From: Firmicutes bacterium HGW-Firmicutes-7
Lineage (GTDB): Bacteria > Bacillota > Clostridia > Lachnospirales > Vallitaleaceae
Direction: 5' to 3'
DNA length: 64,000 bases
Assembly: GCA_002841375.1 (NCBI GenBank)
Contig: PGZO01000017.1
Location: forward strand, 1 to 64,000
Shown: positions 11,553 through 23,655 of the stretch, piece by piece
Numbering within the stretch: the stretch's first letter is position 1
Layout of the letters: every line of letters starts with the position of its first letter
Notes under the pieces: model-generated
Databases searched by the model: none
Seen by the model: the letters and a program-made list of their open reading frames with translations, nothing else
What the model was told of the DNA's origin: nothing
Position numbers and translations under genes: made by a program

Positions 11553-11820
11553 AAATACACCTCTTTCTTATTGGATTGACTGCTTTTTCTTATATATTAA
11601 TATAACAGCATTGAGAGGAGAAAACAATGGACATTATTAATTTTGGATATCACAATATTCGTATAAGCTTCTTTATAAGAACAGTTGTCATAAAGAAAAA
11701 GTTCATGTATAGTAAAGTATATATTAGTCGACTTAATAAGATTTGAAAATAATGAAAACGAGTAATAAATTATTAAATACAGAATTAAATGAGAAAGAGA
11801 AGAAAGGAAAAATTCCATTC

Positions 11821-13215
11821 ATGAAAAGAATAACGGTTATATTTATTGTAGTATCAATATTATTTAATTCTGTATTTGCAGAAGAAAAAGTGGCCAACAC
11901 AGAAAGTCAAATGCAAACATTTACACAAAATAGAGACGATTTTTCTGTGAACCAAAAGAATATTATTTATGGTGACGATAGCTATTTTTTTGTTCGTAGA
12001 ATTGATTATAAGTGCAACAAGGACTATTATGTTACCAGTTTTTACATACCTGGAGAAAGTGGTAGCATTCAGTGGTTTGATAGCAAAAAGCAGCTCATTA
12101 CTTCTGAGCTTACAGCTGGAAATCTACCGATGAACTCTAACCTTTATATACAAACGGAAGAATATAGTTTTCTACTTGGACAAGCATATAACTATAAGGA
12201 CATGGGAAAGGGTACTAGAACAAGTATCGAAAAAGATAGAGCTCCTCTTAATATTAAAAAAGAGGGTGATAAATGGTTAATTACTTACACCTATAAGCAA
12301 AATGAAGCACATCATGGTATTTTGTGGGGGGCAGGTTCAAAAGATCAACTAATAGATTTCTCTAATGAAAGCTTGGTTAAAATATGGGCTGGTTATGATT
12401 TATGTAACAATGCTAGATTTTGCGAAGATGGATACTACTATAAAAGCCCTAGCGTATATAGCCCAACAGGGCCGGATGCCTTTTGGAGAATTCCATCGAT
12501 GTATCTTATTAATGCTTTTGTTAAGACGGGAGGAAGCTTAGCCTCTGAAGTGATTTCAAATGCTATGTTGGTTATTGCTTCTGATAATTTAAATGAACAA
12601 GGATTTTTCCCGACACTTCCTCAAAATGATTGGCTTAAAAAGGACTACGACATTAGTAGTGGTTACTTTGATACGCGATTTAATGCAGATACCGGCGAAA
12701 CATATCTATTAGCTTATCGAGAATTTAACAACCCTATTTTTAGGGAGATATATATAAAGATGGCTGATTATTATATATACCATGCTCTTAGCAATCACTA
12801 TACAATCAGGTCACCAGGCTTAAAGAAGGGTTGGCTTGTTCAAGACTTTGCACATCCCCAAGCTATAGATAACCATGTTGCCCTCAATCATCAATTACAG
12901 GCGATTCATTGGTTTTACCTATTGTATGAGACTGAACAAGATAATCAATATTTATACATTGCTAATTTAATGCTCCAAGGAATAAAAAACACGAAAGAGC
13001 TATGGGTCATGAGTAATAACAACCTAGAATATGCCTATATGCCTAATGGAACCATGGGATTGGTTGACTATCCTTATCTTACCTATAATGATTTATTCAA
13101 TGTGCAGCTAGATTTACAAAGAATTAAGGGTGAAAGAGATGTAGACTTAGATTATTTAATGGCGCATAAAAAGAAATGGATGGATGAGAATGGTATTACA
13201 AATTACAAGAAATGA
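11821..13215 (+). CDS. Secreted protein of unknown function, possibly alpha/alpha-barrel
   Basis: From the ATG at 11821 the 464-residue product begins with a clean signal peptide (MKRITVIFIVVSIL, with A-E-E as probable cleavage region near residue 20). An in-frame ATG at 11752 and TTG at 11743 would add a charged N-terminal extension that is less likely. The mature protein has a beta-rich first third and a helical remainder with aromatic and His-rich motifs (NHVALNHQLQ, YLTYND), reminiscent of the C-terminal fold of glucuronyl C5-epimerases and other alpha/alpha-barrel enzymes acting on glycans. I do not recognise a specific family. No close terminator is seen. Confidence 0.6.
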   Translation: MKRITVIFIVVSILFNSVFAEEKVANTESQMQTFTQNRDDFSVNQKNIIYGDDSYFFVRRIDYKCNKDYYVTSFYIPGESGSIQWFDSKKQLITSELTAGNLPMNSNLYIQTEEYSFLLGQAYNYKDMGKGTRTSIEKDRAPLNIKKEGDKWLITYTYKQNEAHHGILWGAGSKDQLIDFSNESLVKIWAGYDLCNNARFCEDGYYYKSPSVYSPTGPDAFWRIPSMYLINAFVKTGGSLASEVISNAMLVIASDNLNEQGFFPTLPQNDWLKKDYDISSGYFDTRFNADTGETYLLAYREFNNPIFREIYIKMADYYIYHALSNHYTIRSPGLKKGWLVQDFAHPQAIDNHVALNHQLQAIHWFYLLYETEQDNQYLYIANLMLQGIKNTKELWVMSNNNLEYAYMPNGTMGLVDYPYLTYNDLFNVQLDLQRIKGERDVDLDYLMAHKKKWMDENGITNYKK

Positions 13216-13273: not shown

Positions 13274-13302
13274 TTGACACCGGTCATAATCTATGGTAAA
13301 AT
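13274..13302 (+). promoter_or_regulatory. pyr operon promoter
   Basis: TTGACA at 13274-13279 and TAAAAT at 13297-13302, separated by 17 bp, with a TGn extension before the -10. This is one of the best vegetative promoters in the window. Transcription would start near 13309, giving a leader of about 340 nt before pyrB. Confidence 0.85.
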
Positions 13303-13308
13303 CATAAC

Positions 13309-13570
13309 AATTTGAGCAACAATATTTCCGCAAACATAGCGACCTTTAAATTGGTTCAGAGAGACCAGCAAGGGAGGATTTATCATGGGACACATTTATG
13401 AGTTCTTTTATTATGTAAAAAAGCACTATAAGAATATAAGAAATTCAATAGGACTAATGCGCAAGAAACATTTGTCCGCCTTCGTGATTATTAAAAAAAG
13501 CAACCATAATTTAAAAGCAATAAGTACAATTAACTATTTGGGATAGTTAATGTATTTGTTGCTTTTTTTA
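13309..13570 (+). promoter_or_regulatory. PyrR-type attenuator leader of the pyr operon
   Basis: Within 13343-13373 lies a PyrR-binding loop: a lower stem CCTT/AAGG, an internal bulge, an upper stem TGGT/ACCA and the conserved loop TCAGAGAG. The terminator at the end is 13513-13569: attaactat (13529-13537) pairs with atagttaat (13543-13551), extended by aaaagcaa/ttgctttt and a T7 run. PyrR-UMP binding would lower transcription when pyrimidines are plentiful. Unlike the Bacillus arrangement, the binding loop also contains the ribosome binding site of a leader ORF that fills the space up to the terminator. pyrR itself is not in the window. Confidence 0.88.
13385..13546 (+). CDS. pyr leader peptide, 53 codons
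   Basis: An ATG at 13385 follows AAGGGAGG (13370-13377) at ideal spacing, and the frame stays open for 53 codons to a TAG at 13544-13546, which lies in the 3' arm of the operon terminator. The predicted product is basic and aromatic-rich at the N-terminus (MGHIYEFFYYVKKHYK) and resembles no known protein. A ribosome finishing this ORF would cover the terminator stem. This is the geometry of the enterobacterial pyrBI leader peptide, here placed behind a PyrR-binding loop that could hide the ribosome binding site. Function as a control ORF rather than a peptide gene is inferred. Confidence 0.7.
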   Translation: MGHIYEFFYYVKKHYKNIRNSIGLMRKKHLSAFVIIKKSNHNLKAISTINYLG

Positions 13571-13651
13571 ACTTAACGAATGAAGATGTTATAATTTGAA
13601 ATAAGATTTTCGTGTATACTATAAATGGCAAAGCCATTAGGAGGAAAAGCA

Positions 13652-14575
13652 ATGTGGACAAGAAAAGATATGCTAGGACTTAATGATTTAACAAAAGAAG
13701 AAATATTGCAAATACTAACACTTGCTAATGAAATGAAACCAATTATTGATAATAGAGCGCTAAGTACCAATTCATTAAAGGACACTAGTATCGTATCCCT
13801 GTTCTATGAAAACTCAACAAGAACAAAAATGTCCTTTGCCCTAGCAAGTAAATATTTAGGTGCGACATTTTCAGATCTTGGAATAAATACAAGTAGTGTA
13901 GCTAAAGGTGAAAGCTTAATTGATACAGGTGTTACACTTGATCAAATGGGAACAGATATTATTATTATGCGACATGGTATGACGGGTGCACCACATATAT
14001 TAGCAAAAAACGTGAAGGCTTCAGTTGTAAGTGGAGGAGATGGAACAAATGAGCATCCGACACAAGGGCTACTAGATTTATTTACAATCATGGAGAGTAA
14101 GAAAAACTTTGAAGGCTTAAAAGTAGCAATTATTGGAGACATTATGCACAGTAGAGTTGCTAGAAGCAATATATTTGGTCTTACGAAGCTTGGAGCCAAG
14201 GTTGTACTGTCAGGACCAACAACGTTAGTATCAAAAGGCCTTGAAGTTCTCGGAGCAGAAGTTAATAACAATGTAAAAGCAGCAGTGAAGGACGCGGACG
14301 TAGTAATGGGTCTTAGAGTGCAGCTTGAGCGACAAAAGGGCGGCATGTTTCCAGATCTTAGAGAATATGCGCAACTCTTTGGGGTTGACAAAAAGGTACT
14401 TGATCTTGCTAAGGAAGATGCATTGTTGATGCATCCAGGCCCAGTAAATAGAGGTGTAGAACTAACCTCAGAAATTATCGATGGTAAACAGTCAGCTATA
14501 AATATCCAAGTTAAAAACGGTGTCGCAGTAAGAATGGCGCTGCTCACTTTACTAGCTCAGGCAAGAAAAATATAA
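13652..14575 (+). CDS. pyrB: Aspartate carbamoyltransferase
   Basis: Catalyses carbamoyl phosphate plus aspartate to carbamoyl-aspartate, step two of UMP synthesis. From the ATG at 13652 (AGGAGG upstream) the protein has 307 residues, the usual catalytic-chain length. The carbamoyl-phosphate loop STRTKMSF (55-62), HPTQGLLD (135-142) and the C-terminal MHPGPVNRG aspartate-binding loop are intact. An in-frame ATG at 13625 lies before the ribosome binding site and is not favoured. No pyrI regulatory subunit follows, as in Gram-positive operons controlled at the RNA level. First gene of the operon. Confidence 0.96.
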   Translation: MWTRKDMLGLNDLTKEEILQILTLANEMKPIIDNRALSTNSLKDTSIVSLFYENSTRTKMSFALASKYLGATFSDLGINTSSVAKGESLIDTGVTLDQMGTDIIIMRHGMTGAPHILAKNVKASVVSGGDGTNEHPTQGLLDLFTIMESKKNFEGLKVAIIGDIMHSRVARSNIFGLTKLGAKVVLSGPTTLVSKGLEVLGAEVNNNVKAAVKDADVVMGLRVQLERQKGGMFPDLREYAQLFGVDKKVLDLAKEDALLMHPGPVNRGVELTSEIIDGKQSAINIQVKNGVAVRMALLTLLAQARKI

Positions 14576-14602
14576 TATGAGATGAATAAGGAGGATATTA
14601 AG

Positions 14603-15877
14603 ATGAAACTACTAATAAAAAATGGACGAATTATCAATCCAGCAACAAAAAAAGATCAGATACAAGATCTTTATGTTGAAGAGGGGATCATTACACAAAT
14701 AGAGGATACAATTGATAAAAAAGATGTGCAAATAATTGATGCAAATAACTGTTGGGTCGTTCCTGGGTTAATTGATGTACATGTACATTTAAGAGAACCA
14801 GGTTATGAATATAAAGAAACAATAGCATCTGGTTCTAGAAGTGCAGCAAAGGGTGGATTTACAACGATATGCCCAATGCCAAACACGAATCCAGTAGTTG
14901 ATAATGAAATTCTTGTGGAATATATCCTGCTAAAAGCAGAAAAGCAAGCTGTAATAAATGTGTTACCAGTCGGAGCCATTACGAAGGGCCAAAAAGGTGA
15001 AGAACTTGCTAATATTGGAAAAATGAAAGAGGCGGGTATATGTGCTATCAGTGAAGATGGACGATCTGTGTTAAACGCATCCTTATTAAAAAAAGCAATG
15101 ATTTATTCTAAAATGTTTGACCTACCCATACTATCTCATTGCGAAGATGATTCTTTAGCAGGAAGTGGTAGCATGAATGCTGGTGAAACAGCAACAATTC
15201 TTGGGCTTAAAGGTATCCCAGATGAAGCAGAGGAGATTATTGTTGCTAGAGATATCATGCTTGCTGAAAAAACAGGTGCAAAGCTTCATATATGTCATGT
15301 AAGTACAGCAGGTAGTGTGGAAATAATTAAAAGGGCAAAGGAAAAAAACATTCATGTAACAGCAGAGGTCACGCCCCATCACTTTACCCTTACGGAAGAA
15401 GCCGTAAAAGGTTTTGATGCAAATGCAAAGATGAACCCACCCCTTAGAACGAAAAAAGATGTTGAGATAATGAAAAGTGCACTTAAAGATGGTACAATAG
15501 ATATTATTGCAACGGACCATGCACCCCATCATATTGATGAGAAAAATTGTGAATTTGAAAAGGCTGCAAATGGCATTGTCGGTTTTGAAACTTCAGTCGC
15601 CTTAACGATAACAGAGTTAGTCGATAAAGGGTTTTTGACACCAATGGAAATGATAGAAAAAATGAGCTATAACCCAGCCAAGCTAATAGGGATAGATAAA
15701 GGAAACCTTGATATAGGCAAGGTTGCAGATATAACCATAATTGATCCTGAGAAGGTATATAAGGTAGATGCAAGTACATTTCTATCTAAGAGTAAAAATA
15801 CACCTTTTGATGGTAGAGAAGTGAAAGGACAAGTCAAGTACACAATCGTAAATGGCGTTATAAAATATCAGTTATAA
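14603..15877 (+). CDS. pyrC: Dihydroorotase, class I
   Basis: Cyclises carbamoyl-aspartate to dihydroorotate. The 424-residue protein from ATG 14603 (AAGGAGG upstream) carries the amidohydrolase metal motif DVHVHLREPG (59-68), later histidines in LSHCEDD, HICHVST and HVTAEVTPHH, and the metal aspartate in IATDHAPH. An ATG at 14582 would start before the ribosome binding site. It is 27 bp from pyrB within one operon. Confidence 0.96.
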   Translation: MKLLIKNGRIINPATKKDQIQDLYVEEGIITQIEDTIDKKDVQIIDANNCWVVPGLIDVHVHLREPGYEYKETIASGSRSAAKGGFTTICPMPNTNPVVDNEILVEYILLKAEKQAVINVLPVGAITKGQKGEELANIGKMKEAGICAISEDGRSVLNASLLKKAMIYSKMFDLPILSHCEDDSLAGSGSMNAGETATILGLKGIPDEAEEIIVARDIMLAEKTGAKLHICHVSTAGSVEIIKRAKEKNIHVTAEVTPHHFTLTEEAVKGFDANAKMNPPLRTKKDVEIMKSALKDGTIDIIATDHAPHHIDEKNCEFEKAANGIVGFETSVALTITELVDKGFLTPMEMIEKMSYNPAKLIGIDKGNLDIGKVADITIIDPEKVYKVDASTFLSKSKNTPFDGREVKGQVKYTIVNGVIKYQL

Positions 15878-15878
15878 C

Positions 15879-15905
15879 ATGGTTATAGTGTCACACTACA
15901 ACCAT
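15879..15905 (+). other. Hairpin between pyrC and pyrF
   Basis: atggttatagtg pairs with cactacaaccat across a 3-nt loop (one mismatch). No U tract follows, so it is not a terminator. It may mark an RNA processing or stability point inside the operon. Confidence 0.4.
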
Positions 15906-15949
15906 AACAAAATTAAATCAATAAATGAGCATACCACAGGAGGGAAAGC

Positions 15950-16882
15950 ATGATAGATTCTTTAATCAGTAAAATAAAAGCAACAAGTAATCCAACAGTA
16001 GTAGGTCTTGATCCAAGATTGGATTTTGTACCTAGTCATATAAAAGAAGAAGCATTTGATTTATATGGTAAAACGCTAGAGGGCGCATCAAAAGCGTTTT
16101 TAGCCTTTAACAAAGCAATTATCGATGCCACCTATGATTTGATTCCAGCAGTTAAGCCTCAAGTTGCAATGTATGAGCAATATGGCTCAGTAGGAATGCA
16201 AGCTTATATTGATTCTATTGCCTATGCAAAATCAAAAGGTTTAGTAATCATTGGAGATATAAAAAGAAGTGATATCGCATCAACTGCAACATCGTATTCT
16301 GACGGCCACATTGGTAGAGTAGAGATTGAAGGCGAAAAAATTGAAGTATATAAAGAAGACTTTGTTACGCTGAATCCATACCTTGGGTATGATTCTATAG
16401 CGCCTTATATGAACAACTGCACACAGTATGATAAGGGGATGTTTGTACTAGTTAAGACCTCTAACCCAAACAGTGGTGAAGTTCAAGATATCCTTGTTGG
16501 CGAAAAGGGTGAAAGGTTATACGAATATATGGGTAGGTTAGTCGCCAAATGGGGCGAGGAAGTTATGGGAAATGAAGGATATAGTAGAATAGGTGCTGTA
16601 GTAGGCGCAACACATAAGGAGCAAGGAATTAGACTTAGAGCGCTAATGCCAAAAACTTATTTTCTAGTACCAGGCTATGGTGCGCAGGGTGCAACAGCGA
16701 GTGATCTTGCAGGCTGTTTTAATAAAGATGGGCTTGGCGCAATCGTGAATTCTTCCAGAGGCATTATAGCAGCTTATACACTTAAAGCGTATAAGGAAAA
16801 CTTTACAGAGAAAGAATTTGCACAAGCAGCAAGACAAGCCGTAATTGACATGAGAGAGGATTTAGGTAAATGCTTCAAATAA
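15950..16882 (+). CDS. pyrF: Orotidine-5'-phosphate decarboxylase, type 2
   Basis: Last step of UMP synthesis. The 310-residue length and motifs VVGLDPRLDF, GDIKRSDIASTA and VVGATHKEQ place it in the longer type 2 (mycobacterial-like) PyrF branch, not the 230-residue Bacillus type. The catalytic Lys/Asp set is within the DIKRSD motif. Ribosome binding site AGGAGGG. Here pyrF precedes carAB, different from the B. subtilis order in which pyrF lies next to pyrE. Confidence 0.95.
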   Translation: MIDSLISKIKATSNPTVVGLDPRLDFVPSHIKEEAFDLYGKTLEGASKAFLAFNKAIIDATYDLIPAVKPQVAMYEQYGSVGMQAYIDSIAYAKSKGLVIIGDIKRSDIASTATSYSDGHIGRVEIEGEKIEVYKEDFVTLNPYLGYDSIAPYMNNCTQYDKGMFVLVKTSNPNSGEVQDILVGEKGERLYEYMGRLVAKWGEEVMGNEGYSRIGAVVGATHKEQGIRLRALMPKTYFLVPGYGAQGATASDLAGCFNKDGLGAIVNSSRGIIAAYTLKAYKENFTEKEFAQAARQAVIDMREDLGKCFK

Positions 16883-16916
16883 TCACGTTAAAACACGCAA
16901 TAGGAGGACAATATAA

Positions 16917-17972
16917 ATGAAAGCAAAACTCATCCTTGAAAATGGAATAATTTTTGAAGGAAAAGCTTTTGGACATCTAAAAGAAACTGTTGGAGAAGTC
17001 GTATTTAATACAAGCATGACGGGTTACCAAGAAGTTTTAACAGATCCATCGTATTATGGTCAAATCGTAACAATGACGTATCCATTAATCGGTAATTATG
17101 GTATTAATTTAGATGATTTAGAGTCAGATCAAGCAAAGGTAAGAGGCTTTATAGTTAGAGAAAAATGCAACAATCCCAACAATTGGCGTTGTGAATTTGA
17201 ACTTGAAGAGTATTTACAAAAAAATAGAATTATTGGACTAGAGGGTATCGATACAAGGGCATTGACAAAAATAATTAGAAATTATGGTACGATGAGAGGC
17301 ATAATCGCCGTTAGAGATTTAACTGAAAGTCAAATAAAGAGTAAATTAGACAGCTTCAATAACACCTTTGCAGTGAAAGAAGTATCAACCAAAGAAGTTA
17401 AGGTGCATGAAGGTGCTGGACAACATATAGCAGTAATGGATTTTGGAATTAAAAACAATATTATTAGATCTTTTAAAAAAAGAGGTTGTAAACTTACTAT
17501 TTTCCCAGCCATGGCCAAGTCAGAAGAAATACTAGCAAGTAACCCTGATGGAATTTTCCTTTCAAATGGACCAGGTGATCCAAAGGATCTTGGAGAAGTA
17601 ATCAATGAGCTTAAAAAATTAATCGGCCAAAAGCCAATTACTGGTATATGTTTGGGCCATCAATTATTAGCCCTTGCCTTAGGCGGAGATACAGAAAAAT
17701 TAAAATTTGGTCACAGAGGTGCGAATCATCCGGTAAAGGATTTGAAAACCAATCGTGTGATGATTACATCACAAAATCATGGTTATGTGGTTAAAGAAGA
17801 TGGACTACCAAAAGAGCTAGAAGTAACCCATATTAATTTGAATGATCATACAGTTGAAGGTATGAGACATAATGAATATCGAATTTATAGCATTCAATTT
17901 CATCCAGAGGCGAGCCCTGGACCACATGATACAGACGGTATATTCGATGAATTTATAGAGGCGATGAAATAG
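16917..17972 (+). CDS. carA: Carbamoyl-phosphate synthase small subunit
   Basis: Glutamine amidotransferase subunit, 351 residues, that passes ammonia to CarB. N-terminal CPSase small-chain domain with TGYQEVLTDPSY, then a class I glutaminase domain with SNGPGDP, the nucleophile in GICLGHQ and the His/Glu in QFHPEASPGP. It is 35 bp upstream of carB. Confidence 0.96.
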   Translation: MKAKLILENGIIFEGKAFGHLKETVGEVVFNTSMTGYQEVLTDPSYYGQIVTMTYPLIGNYGINLDDLESDQAKVRGFIVREKCNNPNNWRCEFELEEYLQKNRIIGLEGIDTRALTKIIRNYGTMRGIIAVRDLTESQIKSKLDSFNNTFAVKEVSTKEVKVHEGAGQHIAVMDFGIKNNIIRSFKKRGCKLTIFPAMAKSEEILASNPDGIFLSNGPGDPKDLGEVINELKKLIGQKPITGICLGHQLLALALGGDTEKLKFGHRGANHPVKDLKTNRVMITSQNHGYVVKEDGLPKELEVTHINLNDHTVEGMRHNEYRIYSIQFHPEASPGPHDTDGIFDEFIEAMK

Positions 17973-18007
17973 AGAAAAATAGACGATTAAAAAGGAAGGT
18001 GACCTAA

Positions 18008-21000
18008 GTGCCAAGAGATAATAGTATAAAAAAGGTTTTGGTAATTGGTTCAGGGCCAATAGTAATAGGACAGGCAGCCGAATTTGATTATTCTGGAACA
18101 CAGTGTTGTCAAGCGTTAAGAGAAGAAGGCGTGGAAACAGTTCTTATAAATAGCAATCCTGCAACCATTATGACAGATAAAGAAATTGCGGATCAAATAT
18201 ATATTGAACCATTAACGATTAAGTATTTGGAAAAAGTAATTGCAAAGGAACGACCAGATAGCTTAATAGCAGGCATGGGTGGACAAACAGGTCTTAACTT
18301 AGCCGTTGAGCTACACGATGAAGGTGTTTTAGAGAAATATAATGTAAGAGTAATCGGAACGCAAATTGAAGCAATTAAAGAAGGGGAAGACCGTGAAGAT
18401 TTTAAAAAGCTTATGGAAAGAATTGGTCAACCTGTTATAGAAAGTAAGATTGTAATAACGATGGAAGAAGGCGTTGAGTTTGCAGCGCAGATTGGATATC
18501 CAGTCGTTGTAAGGCCAGCTTATACCCTTGGTGGTTCAGGTGGTGGAATTGCAGAAGACCGTGAAGAACTCAAACAAATTTTAGCACAAGGTTTACAGTT
18601 AAGTCGAGTCGGTCAAGTATTACTTGAAAAATCAATCAAAGGCTGGAAAGAAGTTGAATACGAAGTAATGAGAGATAGCTTCGGTAATTGTATTACGGTT
18701 TGTAATATGGAAAATATCGATCCTGTAGGGGTACATACTGGAGATAGCATTGTTGTAGCCCCATCTCAAACGCTTTCTGATGTAGAATATCAAATGCTTA
18801 GAAAAGCATCCATTGACATTATAAATGCAATTAAAATCGAAGGAGGCTGTAATGTACAGCTTGCACTTCATCCACAATCTTTTGAATATGCAGTCATTGA
18901 AATTAACCCAAGAGTGAGTCGATCCTCGGCACTTGCATCAAAGGCAACAGGATATCCAATTGCAAAGGTGGCAACAAAAATTGCACTTGGGTACGGACTT
19001 GATGAAATTCAAAATGCCGTAACAAAGAAAACTACCGCGTGTTTTGAGCCTACATTAGACTATTGTGTAGTTAAAATTCCTAAGTGGCCCTTTGATAAGT
19101 TTAGAAGAGCTAAAAAAACCCTTGGAACAAAAATGATGGCTACTGGCGAGGTAATGGCTATAGGAAACACTTTTGAAGCAGCGCTTTTAAAGGCAGTACG
19201 ATCTTTGGAAATTGGACAATACTCCTTATACCATCCAAAGGCTGTTCTAAGAGATATGGACGAGCTAAAGAGACGTGTTCAAGTGCCAGATGATGAAAGA
19301 TTATTTGATCTTGCAGAAATGCTTAGAAGAAATTATAGAATTGACAAAGTATGTAGAATAACCGGAATGGATCCTTTTTTTGTAGACAAGATCAAAGGTA
19401 TTGTTGATGAAGAGGAACGATTAAGAGCAGTTTCCATAACAGATGTAAATAGAGAATGGATGTTAGATCTTAAAAAGAAGGGCTTTTCTGACAAAGCAAT
19501 AGCCGATTTTGTAGGATGCCTTCCAGTTGAAGTATACAATCTTAGAAGAGCTTATCAAATAAAAGCCGTGTTTAAAATGGTAGACACTTGTGGTGGTGAA
19601 TTTGAAGCAGTTTCTCCTTACTACTACTCAACTTATGATGAATACGATGAGGTTGAGGTAACAGATAAAAAGAAAGTTATGGTTATAGGTTCAGGACCCA
19701 TTCGAATTGGTCAAGGTATAGAATTTGATTATTGTTCAGTACACGGTATTATGGCACTGAAAAAAGCAGGGCTTGAAACAATCATTGTTAATAACAACCC
19801 TGAAACTGTAAGTACTGACTTTGATATAGCAGATAAGTTGTATTTTGAGCCATTAACGGAAGAAGATGTCCTTAACATTATTGAAAAAGAAAACCCTAGT
19901 GGCGTAATATTACAATTTGGTGGGCAAACAGCAATAAAATTGGCAAGTTTCCTAAGTGAAATGAAGGTTCCAATACTTGGAACAAAGCCTGAGCAAATAG
20001 ATGAAGCTGAAGATAGAGAAAAATTCGATGACCTAATGGAAAGGTTAGATATAAAGAGACCGAAGGGGAAAGCTGTTTGGAATCTTGAAGAAGGCTTACA
20101 GGAAGCGAAAAATCTTGGCTATCCTGTGCTCGTAAGACCCTCTTATGTACTTGGCGGGCAAGGAATGGAAATTACTTATAATGAAATTGAGTTAGAAAGA
20201 TATTTGGTTCAAGCGTTTGAAAGAGACCGCAAAAACCCAGTTCTAATTGACCGTTACTTAACTGGAAAAGAAATTGAAGTAGATGCGATTTGTGATGGCG
20301 AAAACATTCTAATACCTGGAATAATGGAACATTTAGAACGAGCTGGAATTCACTCGGGAGATAGCATATCAATTTATCCATCTCAAAATATTTCTCAGGA
20401 AATTAAGGATAAAATTTTAGTTCAGACAGAAAAAATAGCAGTCGCCTTAAAGGTCATTGGCATGATTAATATACAATATATTGAGTTTGAAGGGGAACTT
20501 TATATTATCGAGGTAAACCCTAGATCCTCAAGAACAGTACCTTATATTAGTAAGGTAACTGGTGTTCCAATGATTGAATTAGCTACAAGAATTATGTTAG
20601 GTGAGAAGCTTGTAAATCTAGGTTATGGAACTGGAACTTACAAGGAATCAGAACTAGTTGCCATTAAGGTGCCCGTATTTTCAACACAAAAGCTACCTGA
20701 TGTAGAAGTGAGCTTAGGCCCAGAAATGAGATCGACTGGAGAAGTTTTAGGGGTGGGAAAAACCTTTGAAGAGGCGCTATATAAAGGGTTTATAGCATCA
20801 GGAATGGGTGTTCTTAAAGGCGGCGGAACAATTCTCGCTACCATTAAGCCTTATGACCAAGCAGAATTTTTGCCGATCGCTAAAAGGTTTATTGAAATGG
20901 GCTATAGATTCGTTGCAACGGAAGGCACAGCAAAAATGCTTAATGAAAATGGAATAAAAGTGCAACAAGTTAAGAAAATTAGTGAAGGTGTTCCCAATAT

Positions 21001-21229
21001 ATTAGATATGATTAGAAGTGGTCTTATAGATATGGTTATCAATACACCAACAAAGGTGAATGATGTTACAAGAGATGGTTTTATAATAAGACGAGCTGCA
21101 ATTGAGGCTTCGGTGCCAGTACTCACCTCCTTAGATACTGCTAAAGGTATGCTTGGGATTATATGTACAAATATGACGGAAGAAGACACAGATATATATA
21201 ATTTGGGTATTCATAAAGAGGGGTATTAA
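18008..21229 (+). CDS. carB: Carbamoyl-phosphate synthase large subunit
   Basis: The 1073-residue protein has the two homologous ATP-grasp halves (first from [15 protein letters not shown], second from [15 protein letters not shown] near residue 560), the linker oligomerisation domain, and the C-terminal MGS-like allosteric domain (from about residue 935) that would bind regulatory nucleotides. It starts with GTG after an AAGGAAGG site. Only this carAB copy is seen, so it may serve both arginine and pyrimidine synthesis. Confidence 0.97.
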
Positions 21230-21230
21230 A

Positions 21231-22007
21231 ATGTGCGTAGATAAAAATGTGGGTAGGTCAAGTTGTAAAATAATTTATAATAATCAAATAGCTGAAGGCG
21301 TATACGAAATAGTATTTGAAAGCGCATCTATTTCGTCACTAGCTCAGCCAGGGCAATTTGTAAACTTATATAGTAGTATAGGTAGTAGGTTGCTGCCTAG
21401 ACCAATAAGTATATGTGAAGTTAATACGAAGGAACAATGGGTAAAGCTTGTTTATGCAGTGGTTGGAGATGGCACCAAGGAATTTTCAATGCTAGGAAAG
21501 GGTCAGACAATTGATGTGTTAGGGCCTGTAGGTAATGGATATGAGGTAGAGGCTTGCGAGACGAGTATTTTAGTTGGTGGAGGGGTAGGAACGCCACCGC
21601 TACTTGAGCTTGCAAAGAGGATAGAGGGCAAAAAGTTAATATATCTTGGTTTCAGAACGGGGTCCTATCTTGTAGAAGAGTTTAAGAAATATGGAGAAGT
21701 TCAAGTCGCTACTGACGATGGAAGTGAAGGTCATCATGGTACAGTGATCACGCTGATGAACCAAAATAATGCCGATGGTCAAAGAATTTATGCATGTGGG
21801 CCAAAGCCAATGCTAAAAGCACTTCAACAATGGGCAGGAGAAAGAAATATCCGGGCGCAGCTTTCTTTGGAAGAAAGAATGGGATGTGGATTTGGCGCTT
21901 GTGTTGGTTGTGTTTGTAAAATTAAAGCTAAAAATGAGCTGGGGTATACTTATAAAAAGGTTTGTAAGGATGGACCCGTATTTGATGCTAAGGAGGTGCT
22001 CTTTTGA
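21231..22007 (+). CDS. pyrK: Dihydroorotate dehydrogenase electron-transfer subunit
   Basis: A 258-residue FAD and [2Fe-2S] protein that carries electrons from PyrD to NAD. FAD-binding RPISI and NAD-binding GGGVGTPPL are visible, and the cluster cysteines lie in MGCGFGACVGCVC with a fourth in KKVCKDG. It starts one base after the carB stop and overlaps pyrD by 4 nt, ensuring balanced subunits. Confidence 0.95.
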   Translation: MCVDKNVGRSSCKIIYNNQIAEGVYEIVFESASISSLAQPGQFVNLYSSIGSRLLPRPISICEVNTKEQWVKLVYAVVGDGTKEFSMLGKGQTIDVLGPVGNGYEVEACETSILVGGGVGTPPLLELAKRIEGKKLIYLGFRTGSYLVEEFKKYGEVQVATDDGSEGHHGTVITLMNQNNADGQRIYACGPKPMLKALQQWAGERNIRAQLSLEERMGCGFGACVGCVCKIKAKNELGYTYKKVCKDGPVFDAKEVLF

Positions 22008-22909
22008 TGAATTTAAGTGTAAATATTGCAGGAGTGGAACTGAAGAATCCTGTTATGACGGCATCCGGTACCTTCGGTTCTGGAAAAGAATTTGAACAAT
22101 ATATTGATATAAATAGGTTAGGCGGAGTGATTGTAAAGGGCGTGGCAAATAAAGAGTGGCTAGGTAATCCGTCTCCAAGAATTGCCGAAACCTACGGTGG
22201 AATGCTAAATGCAGTTGGGCTGCAAAACCCTGGAATGGAAGTATTTATTAAGGAGGATATTCCTTTTTTAAGAAAATTTGACACGAAAATTATCGTAAAT
22301 GTTGTTGGTAGAACGATTTCGGATTATTGTGAGGTCGCTGAGAGGCTACAAAATGAAGATGTTGATTTATTAGAGTTAAATATTTCCTGCCCAAATGTAA
22401 AAGAGGGCGGCGTGGCCTTTGGGATTAGCCCACAAATGGCTGAGAAGATAACGAACGAAGTAAAGAAATATGCCAAGCAACCATTAATAGTTAAGTTAAG
22501 TCCTAATGTTACAGATATAGCAGAAATTGCAAGAGCTGTTGAAGCTGGAGGTGCAGATGCTGTTTCATTAATTAATACCTTAATAGGCATGAAAGTTGAT
22601 GTTCATAAGAGACAACCGGTTATAGCAAATAAGATTGCTGGCTTATCAGGACCTGCTATTAAGCCTGTTGCAGTTAGAATGGTATATCAAGTTGCTAAGG
22701 CTATACGTATTCCAATTATCGGCTTGGGCGGCATAATGACAGGTGAAGATGCGATTGAATTTTTAATGGTTGGTGCATCAGCAATTGCCGTTGGTACAGC
22801 TAATCTGTTGAATCCTAGAGCTACAATGAACATATTAGATGAGATAGAAACTTTTATGAAAACTAAAAAAATTCGTGACATTAAAGAAATAATTGGTATA
22901 ATAGAATAG
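22004..22909 (+). CDS. pyrD: Dihydroorotate dehydrogenase, catalytic subunit (class 1B)
   Basis: FMN enzyme, 301 residues, oxidising dihydroorotate to orotate. The N-terminal MTASGTFGSGKEF, the active-site NISCPNVKEGG with catalytic Cys, and the FMN phosphate-binding GLGGIMTGEDA are present. With PyrK it forms the NAD-dependent heterotetramer typical of anaerobic Gram-positives. ATG overlaps the pyrK stop (ATGA). Confidence 0.96.
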   Translation: MMNLSVNIAGVELKNPVMTASGTFGSGKEFEQYIDINRLGGVIVKGVANKEWLGNPSPRIAETYGGMLNAVGLQNPGMEVFIKEDIPFLRKFDTKIIVNVVGRTISDYCEVAERLQNEDVDLLELNISCPNVKEGGVAFGISPQMAEKITNEVKKYAKQPLIVKLSPNVTDIAEIARAVEAGGADAVSLINTLIGMKVDVHKRQPVIANKIAGLSGPAIKPVAVRMVYQVAKAIRIPIIGLGGIMTGEDAIEFLMVGASAIAVGTANLLNPRATMNILDEIETFMKTKKIRDIKEIIGIIE

Positions 22910-22980
22910 TGACATATGCGTGGGGGCGCATTATAGAGATACATAGAGGATTAAACTAATTGAAGAAAGGGAATGTTAAA

Positions 22981-23655
22981 ATGGAGCAATACAAGAAAGA
23001 TTTTATTGAGTTTATGGTAGGGTGTCAAGTTCTTACTTTTGGTGATTTCACAACAAAAAGTGGGAGGAAAACACCTTTTTTTGTAAACACAGGAAACTAT
23101 AAAACAGGAAGACAATTAAGCCAACTTGGCGACTATTATGCAAAGGCGATCAAAGAAAACTTCGGTACAGATTTTGAAGTGCTTTACGGCCCAGCTTATA
23201 AAGGAATACCATTAAGCGTTGCTACTTCAATTGCATTAGCTAATTCCTATGGTGCTGATGTTGCGTACTGTTCTAATAGAAAAGAAGCAAAGGACCATGG
23301 CGAAACGGGTGTGCTTTTAGGAAGCAAGCTTAAAGATGGTGACAGGGTAATTATAATAGAAGACGTAACTACAGCAGGAACTTCTATTTATGAAACGATG
23401 CCATTGTTAAAAGAAGCTGCAAACGTAGAGGTGTTGGGACTTATTATTTCAGTAGATAGAATGGAAAAAGGTAAGGCAGAAATAAGCGCATTAAATGAAT
23501 TAGCAGAAACCTTCAAGTTTAAAACCTGTTCAATTGTAACGATGGAGGAAGTAATTGGATATTTATATAACCGTAAAATTGATGGGATATGTTATATCGA
23601 TGATGAAATAAAAGAAAGAATTGTTGAATACTACAACCAATATGGTGCGAAATAG
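22981..23655 (+). CDS. pyrE: Orotate phosphoribosyltransferase
   Basis: Makes orotidine-5'-phosphate from orotate and PRPP. The 224-residue protein has the PRPP motif VIIIEDVTTAGTS and the flexible loop NRKEAKDHGETG. ATG 22981 follows a GAAAGGGA site; a TTG at 22960 is less likely. Last gene of the pyr operon, followed by two REP-like repeats. Confidence 0.95.
   Translation: MEQYKKDFIEFMVGCQVLTFGDFTTKSGRKTPFFVNTGNYKTGRQLSQLGDYYAKAIKENFGTDFEVLYGPAYKGIPLSVATSIALANSYGADVAYCSNRKEAKDHGETGVLLGSKLKDGDRVIIIEDVTTAGTSIYETMPLLKEAANVEVLGLIISVDRMEKGKAEISALNELAETFKFKTCSIVTMEEVIGYLYNRKIDGICYIDDEIKERIVEYYNQYGAK

Follow-up and report, generated by a model that had tools for sequence, protein, structure and literature searches.

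How a pyrimidine operon is controlled when its leader combines a PyrR-binding loop with an open reading frame (ORF) that runs into the terminator is the question raised by a locus of Firmicutes bacterium HGW-Firmicutes-7. It lies in the window, the whole stretch of 64,000 nucleotides that was analysed (contig PGZO01000017.1, positions 1 to 64,000). The first-pass annotation had proposed a hybrid attenuator, in which PyrR-UMP hides the ribosome binding site of the leader ORF, so that no ribosome follows the polymerase and the terminator forms. On direct reading, its coordinates for the loop, the ribosome binding site, the 53-codon ORF and the stop at 13546 were correct.

Elements of the pyr leader and its operon

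The features of the leader and of the genes that follow it are:

13274..13302, + strand: promoter-like site TTGACA-17-TAAAAT (11/12, with TG before the -10); leader start expected at about 13309
13343..13373, + strand: PyrR-binding loop, CCTTTAAATTGGTTCAGAGAGACCAGCAAGG; pattern match, RF00515 alignment of 31.1 bits (gathering score 54)
13370..13377, + strand: Shine-Dalgarno sequence (SD) AAGGGAGG, overlapping the 3' strand of the loop; its GGAGG core is able to pair with the loop CCUUU
13385..13546, + strand: leader ORF of 53 codons, ATG at 13385 and stop TAG at 13544-13546; no Pfam or NCBIfam match
13403..13414, + strand: U-rich tract, +18 to +29 from the ATG, holding TTCTTT, which fits the NusG pause motif TTNTTT; candidate pause site
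13513..13566, + strand: intrinsic terminator hairpin with a T run after it, up to 13569; the ORF stop codon is in its 3' arm
13568..13595, + strand: second promoter-like site (10/12) in the gap between terminator and pyrB; putative, could give basal expression
13652..14575, + strand: pyrB, which opens the controlled operon (NF002032, 365.6 bits, over cut-off)
14582..23655, + strand: pyrC, pyrF, carA, carB, pyrK, pyrD and pyrE, by profile matches, with pyrD and pyrE by reading of the ORFs

The overlap of the ribosome binding site with the PyrR loop, described in the first-pass annotation, stands with one refinement: in the canonical register of the loop, the SD contributes just its first four bases (AAGG) to the stem. 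In the minimum-energy fold of the loop, CCUUU is paired instead with GGAGG, the SD core. Because its RF00515 score is below the gathering score, the window site is unlisted at Rfam's own threshold. Folding of 13513-13566 gave a terminator hairpin of 25 pairs (-24.6 kcal/mol) in which all three bases of the stop codon are paired within the 3' arm, with partners at 13534-13536, and this bears out the earlier claim that the ORF stops inside that arm. The entire leader folds more stably than 200/200 shuffles (z -3.05), and a mid-leader hairpin in which CTCC faces the SD appears in some folds. Direct reading of a second leader from the same genus (L008) showed that the -35/-10 pair and its 17-base spacing are retained.

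Within the operon, pyrC, pyrF, carA, carB and pyrK were each named by their best profile match; for pyrK the best models are under their own cut-offs, and for pyrC several models are below and TIGR00857 is above cut-off. The 490-residue ORF just upstream of the leader (11743-13215) had no NCBIfam match at E 1e-20. The genome encodes PyrR away from the leader (G000:C10, 233 bits, cut-off 138). In both genomes of the genus, a second pyrB, with 48-49% identity to the pyrB of the window, adjoins pyrR (G000:C10:56171-57681, locus L027, and G001:C2, locus L028). The pattern search detected no PyrR loop near this second pyrB in either genome, and the long ORF that follows it has a start resembling a second pyrC.

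Distribution of the layout and conservation of the frame

The loop pattern was searched in 295 genomes of the order, 391 of the class and 398 of the phylum. It gave 47 sites in 40/295 genomes of the order, where the reversed control pattern had no match, and matches in 106/391 genomes of the class and 256/398 of the phylum, with one reversed match in each (G608 and G936, respectively). The class was sampled through 80 regions and 30 loci among the matches listed. After counting sites with an identical loop plus 150 bases once, and dropping loops with fewer than 300 bases downstream, the comparison set held 181 distinct PyrR-loop sites. Three layouts were observed: the classic leader with a near terminator, the loop placed directly on a gene, and a window-like leader ORF plus terminator. 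The direct layout comprises 20 sites, 19 on pyrB (recognised by the ATCase motif) and one on a gene reading as a uracil permease; L156, L176 and L219, included in a first pass of 23, were rejected, as their frames run through the leader into an apparent pyrR. A first-pass count of 63 sites with a leader ORF plus terminator was left unused, since it allowed GTG and TTG starts and included chance cases.

Related pyr leaders carry the combination described at this locus in the first-pass annotation: 15 of the 17 loop-carrying genomes of the window's family have the loop, the leader ORF and the terminator. The exceptions are G004, whose only loop (L148) is directly on pyrB, and G005, whose loop (L134) has neither. 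The leader of the same genus, L008, has a 53-codon ORF with 25/53 identical residues and no gap, while Defluviitalea phaphyphila (L029) has the same layout with a 52-codon ORF and a different peptide. Across lineages, the ORFs range from 14 to 76 codons, and the distance to the terminator also varies. At the Rfam gathering score, none of the 20 submitted leader-ORF loops was reached, the sole match in L226 being its other, classic loop; 20 other loci, classic and direct, gave 12 matches.

Outside the class, we read 29 loci among the matches listed (L267-L295, two of which, L285 and L286, belong to the class) and a further 20 regions picked for reading. Most of these looked classic, and in none was there clearly an SD and an ATG whose frame extends to a distant terminator. 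Six of them (the second loop of L283, L287 and L303-L306), in which the ATG frame stays open as far as a nearby terminator or beyond it, were left unclassified, so that the layout may also occur outside the class.

Two PyrR loops in tandem were seen at nine sites of family f45 (L228, L231, L232, L233, L235 and L239-L242) and one of f15 (L143). The first loop has no pyrB, and the second, 88-182 bases on, is directly on the pyrB start. Through such tandem loops, a single protein may exert two successive controls.

Presence of the loop followed that of the protein. Among 41 relatives, the loop was present in 21/22 with PyrR over the curated cut-off and in 0/19 without (Fisher 8e-11). In 32 further genomes with the loop, nearly all of the leader-ORF layout, PyrR was over the cut-off in 30; G175 and G207, which have the leader and no PyrR over the cut-off, are drafts that are 92 and 73% complete. 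The ATG lies 5-12 bases past AAGG in leader-ORF sites and 7-11 bases past it in the 20 direct sites. Given this matching geometry, the effect of PyrR on translation in the direct layout should also be possible in the leader-ORF layout.

To judge whether the frame is conserved or open by chance, sites were selected for a loop with three purines behind it and an ATG at a distance of 5-14 bases, a choice that is blind to where short ORFs end; 21 long ORFs were set aside. This gave 47 sites, of which five with no called terminator were dropped (L151, L189, L225, L229 and L246; L151 does display a strong hairpin), leaving 42 to be scored, from 21 genera and 10 families (L029 being counted in the genus of G044, which has an identical leader). 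The frame of the ATG was open to the terminator in 40/42, and the other two frames in 4/42 and 3/42. The stop fell within the hairpin, allowing 5 bases either side, in 33/42 leaders, and in 19/21 genera every member was open. One of the two misses is L008, for which the script took an out-of-frame upstream ATG; its true 53-codon ORF is open. The other, L112 (G155), is a true exception, with an ORF of just 7 codons. L120, of the same family as L112, retains 67 codons, which makes L112 a natural broken case.

The ORF of the window stays open in 1.1% of dinucleotide shuffles, and about 1% is typical at a length near 50 codons. The chance rises to 7-42% for the short ORFs of 14-25 codons (f47, f45, f54 and one of f64), so that these lineages say little alone. 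The +1 frame of the ATG often begins with TGA and is therefore a somewhat easy control; the dinucleotide shuffle test is unaffected by this. A weaker control, sites with an ATG and no purine triplet, was open to the terminator in 14/25, of which 5 are themselves leader-ORF sites, and its terminators are nearer (median 49 bases vs 120). The frame count is the only independent test, because the other set of 47 leader-ORF sites, used below for antiterminator pairing, U tracts and gene gaps, was chosen partly by where the ORF ends.

Proposed control and alternative readings

The leader is probably a PyrR-gated, translation-coupled transcription attenuator, in which translation of the leader controls the terminator. 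When UMP is scarce, the RNA would be free of PyrR and a ribosome would initiate on the leader ORF through the SD at the 3' edge of the loop. It would trail RNA polymerase to the stop codon inside the terminator, covering the hairpin, and polymerase would continue into the pyr operon. When UMP is plentiful, PyrR-UMP on the loop would close the SD and, with no trailing ribosome, the terminator would form and the operon would be off. The leader peptide would have no role of its own. A U-rich tract close behind the start codon, seen in several families, may delay polymerase and give PyrR or the ribosome time to act. The hybrid of the first-pass annotation thus gains computational support from the presence of the ORF in most loop-carrying genomes of the window's family, from the open frames and, for these leaders as a group, from the lack of antiterminator pairing; PyrR binding at this loop, repression of the ORF, the coupling itself and the pause are what we infer.

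Classic PyrR leaders allow pairing between the loop's 3' strand and the 5' arm of the terminator. If the window leader were an attenuator of this Bacillus type, PyrR would stabilise an anti-antiterminator and the leader ORF would be incidental; the loop, the terminator and pyrR are all present, as this reading expects. Pairing was scored as duplex energy against shuffles. Between loop and terminator arm, the median z was -0.03 at 47 leader-ORF sites vs -1.28 at 70 other sites, not all of them proven classic (Mann-Whitney p 1.5e-6), and with the whole leader as partner it was -0.01 (n=47) vs -1.69 at classic sites (n=42; p 4e-7). No antiterminator was found in the window, where pairing was no better than in shuffles with either the loop (z 0.05) or the whole leader (z 1.09) as partner, in a test that is weak for a single site. 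Because so few sites singly reach a shuffle p of 0.01 (12/70 others and 2/47 leader-ORF sites), missing pairing at one site proves little, and three leader-ORF sites do have loop-terminator complementarity (L120, p 0.01; L199, p 0.01; L201, p 0.02). The other PyrR sites nevertheless pair as a group, and an incidental ORF leaves the open frames unexplained, which makes the Bacillus-type reading unlikely. The genus g187, to which L199 and L201 belong together with L204 (p 0.07), combines the leader-ORF layout with this complementarity, and its leaders are perhaps intermediate between two mechanisms.

The peptides themselves are poorly kept. Pooled pN/pS was 0.82 over 23 non-independent pairs. 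Retention of the open frame alongside peptide drift is expected where the act of translation counts and its product does not, which seems to be the case here. A small-protein function was considered and rejected, six leader peptides having no Pfam or NCBIfam match over cut-off and pN/pS being near 0.8. Gaps in the ORFs had no overall excess of multiples of three (18/47); in four close pairs, a subset picked afterwards, 6/6 were multiples of three.

In families f1, f24 and f8, the opening codons of the ORF show conservation of their bases (13385-13402 in the window; L135, L149, L126, L121, L130 and others). CGA is found as codon 2 in 19 of 23 sites, GAC as codon 3 in 16, ATC as codon 4 in 20 and GCG as codon 6 in 22. 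A small start-codon hairpin can form from GAUG and CAUC, or from CAUG and CAUG in L130; the window keeps only AUG with CAU.

Little peptide conservation and the lack of family matches also speak against an ordinary small gene repressed by PyrR, with a terminator near its stop and the pyr genes served by a downstream promoter. A passage of PMC7858274 reports, for B. subtilis, terminators placed within a few bases downstream of stop codons, and the window has its promoter-like site at 13568-13595, within a searched region that gave 5 promoter-like sites in all vs a mean of 3.1 in shuffles. However, the gap between terminator and first gene is 45 bases or less in 19/47 leaders (18 if L188, with its uncertain gene call, is left out), and is therefore too small for a separate promoter plus SD; moreover, the first downstream gene reads as pyrB, pyrC or carA in 46/47 leader-ORF sites. 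An ordinary small gene is thus very unlikely. In the window this gap is larger and contains the promoter-like site, which may give basal expression there.

For the translation-coupled attenuator, timing is a concern. Excerpts of PMC7858274 and PMC9226507 describe B. subtilis polymerase as running ahead of ribosomes, and a polymerase that outruns the ribosome would defeat coupling unless it pauses. The U fraction at +18 to +29 is 0.71 in f1, 0.80 in f24, 0.67 in f8 and 0.69 in f92, and further on 0.31-0.36; the tract is absent in f2, f15, f64 and f45 (0.22-0.33), and f47 and f54 are intermediate (0.40 and 0.50). TTNTTT starts at +18 or +19 in 17/47 leader-ORF sites. This motif is a NusG-dependent pause motif that acts in vmlR, as an excerpt of PMC9226507 has it, and a passage of PMC12288461 states that NusG-dependent pausing buys time for leader translation in tlrB, and that only a small fraction of TTNTTT motifs pause strongly in B. 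subtilis. We propose as a hypothesis that the U-rich tract may act as a polymerase pause in these leaders.

A UTP sensor like that of pyrBI, in which low UTP would pause polymerase in the U-rich tract, the ribosome would catch up and PyrR would add little, agrees with the U fractions of 0.67-0.80 in f1, f24, f8 and f92 and with an ORF terminating inside the terminator, yet it is a very unlikely account of the layout, as f2, f15, f64 and f45 have no U tract and do have the PyrR loop (by selection), and loops track pyrR.

More tentatively, and with some doubt on our part, these leaders could form a dedicated clostridial class of PyrR attenuators that enforces coupling in relatives of B. subtilis, a setting in which polymerase would otherwise run ahead of ribosomes. 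In this view, a conserved TTNTTT pause just past the start would hold polymerase back during a contest between PyrR-UMP and the 30S subunit for one set of bases. As the proposed pause falls in a U run, UTP may also be read directly, and both UMP and UTP would then be sensed ahead of a single terminator that governs entry into the entire UMP operon.

Related systems and significance

The closest parallel is a proposal for Thermus strain ZO5, where Van de Casteele and colleagues reportedly described, in 1997, a pyr leader with PyrR and a terminator and no antiterminator, in which a ribosome was proposed to prevent the terminator. The logic appears to be essentially the same, and the window leader shares the feature of a leader ORF running into a terminator. 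Thermus ZO5, however, is of another phylum, and the proposal reportedly concerned one sequence, whereas the leaders described here come from many families, with frame statistics and a possible pause. In Mycobacterium smegmatis, PyrR is said to repress translation through a loop at the ribosome binding site (work of Fields and Switzer, 2007), and the window loop likewise overlaps an SD; in that species PyrR acts on the ORF of a structural gene, whereas in the window the ORF is a leader ORF with a terminator before pyrB, through which the effect would be passed to transcription. The 20 direct sites of the comparison set are of the M. smegmatis kind.

In enterobacterial pyrBI, termination is avoided when a ribosome translates a leader ORF whose end lies in the terminator, and UTP-dependent pausing is the sensor. 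The window has a leader ORF ending in the terminator and a U-rich tract (13403-13414), a candidate pause site, before it; it differs in that sensing in pyrBI is by UTP-dependent pausing and does not involve PyrR. The Bacillus PyrR attenuator consists of a PyrR loop and an intrinsic terminator before the pyr operon, and is off at high uridine nucleotide (PMC4347634, in excerpt). A PyrR loop with the conserved core, an intrinsic terminator, a pyr operon and a PyrR encoded in the genome are common to both, but in the window leader no antiterminator was found, a leader ORF stands in that position, and the loop is below the Rfam gathering score. The vmlR and tlrB leaders of B. subtilis also combine a leader ORF with attenuation and a NusG-dependent pause, which here is only proposed; in them the signal is antibiotic stalling, and vmlR has an antiterminator (excerpts of PMC9226507 and PMC12288461).

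The titles and abstract openings of the open-access literature searched hold no description of a PyrR-controlled leader ORF, and the excerpts of PMC2753549 and PMC2965389 contain background only and nothing on such ORFs. What appears new is a conserved clostridial class that is invisible to Rfam. The novelty would lie in how widely it occurs in Clostridia, in the frame statistics, in the invisibility of the submitted loops at the gathering score and in the possible pause; the principle itself, as reportedly proposed for Thermus in 1997, is not new.

For the submitted loops, RNA annotation at the Rfam threshold misses the leader-ORF class. The control proposed here, if true, would account for the short ORFs that precede pyr operons and have no conserved product, and would offer a clean natural test of coupling-based gene regulation in Firmicutes despite runaway transcription. 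It would also mean that PyrR has three outputs in one bacterial class: one works through an antiterminator, one represses a gene directly, and one acts on transcription by way of the leader ribosome. The loop-to-start geometry common to the direct and leader-ORF modes suggests an evolutionary route between them.
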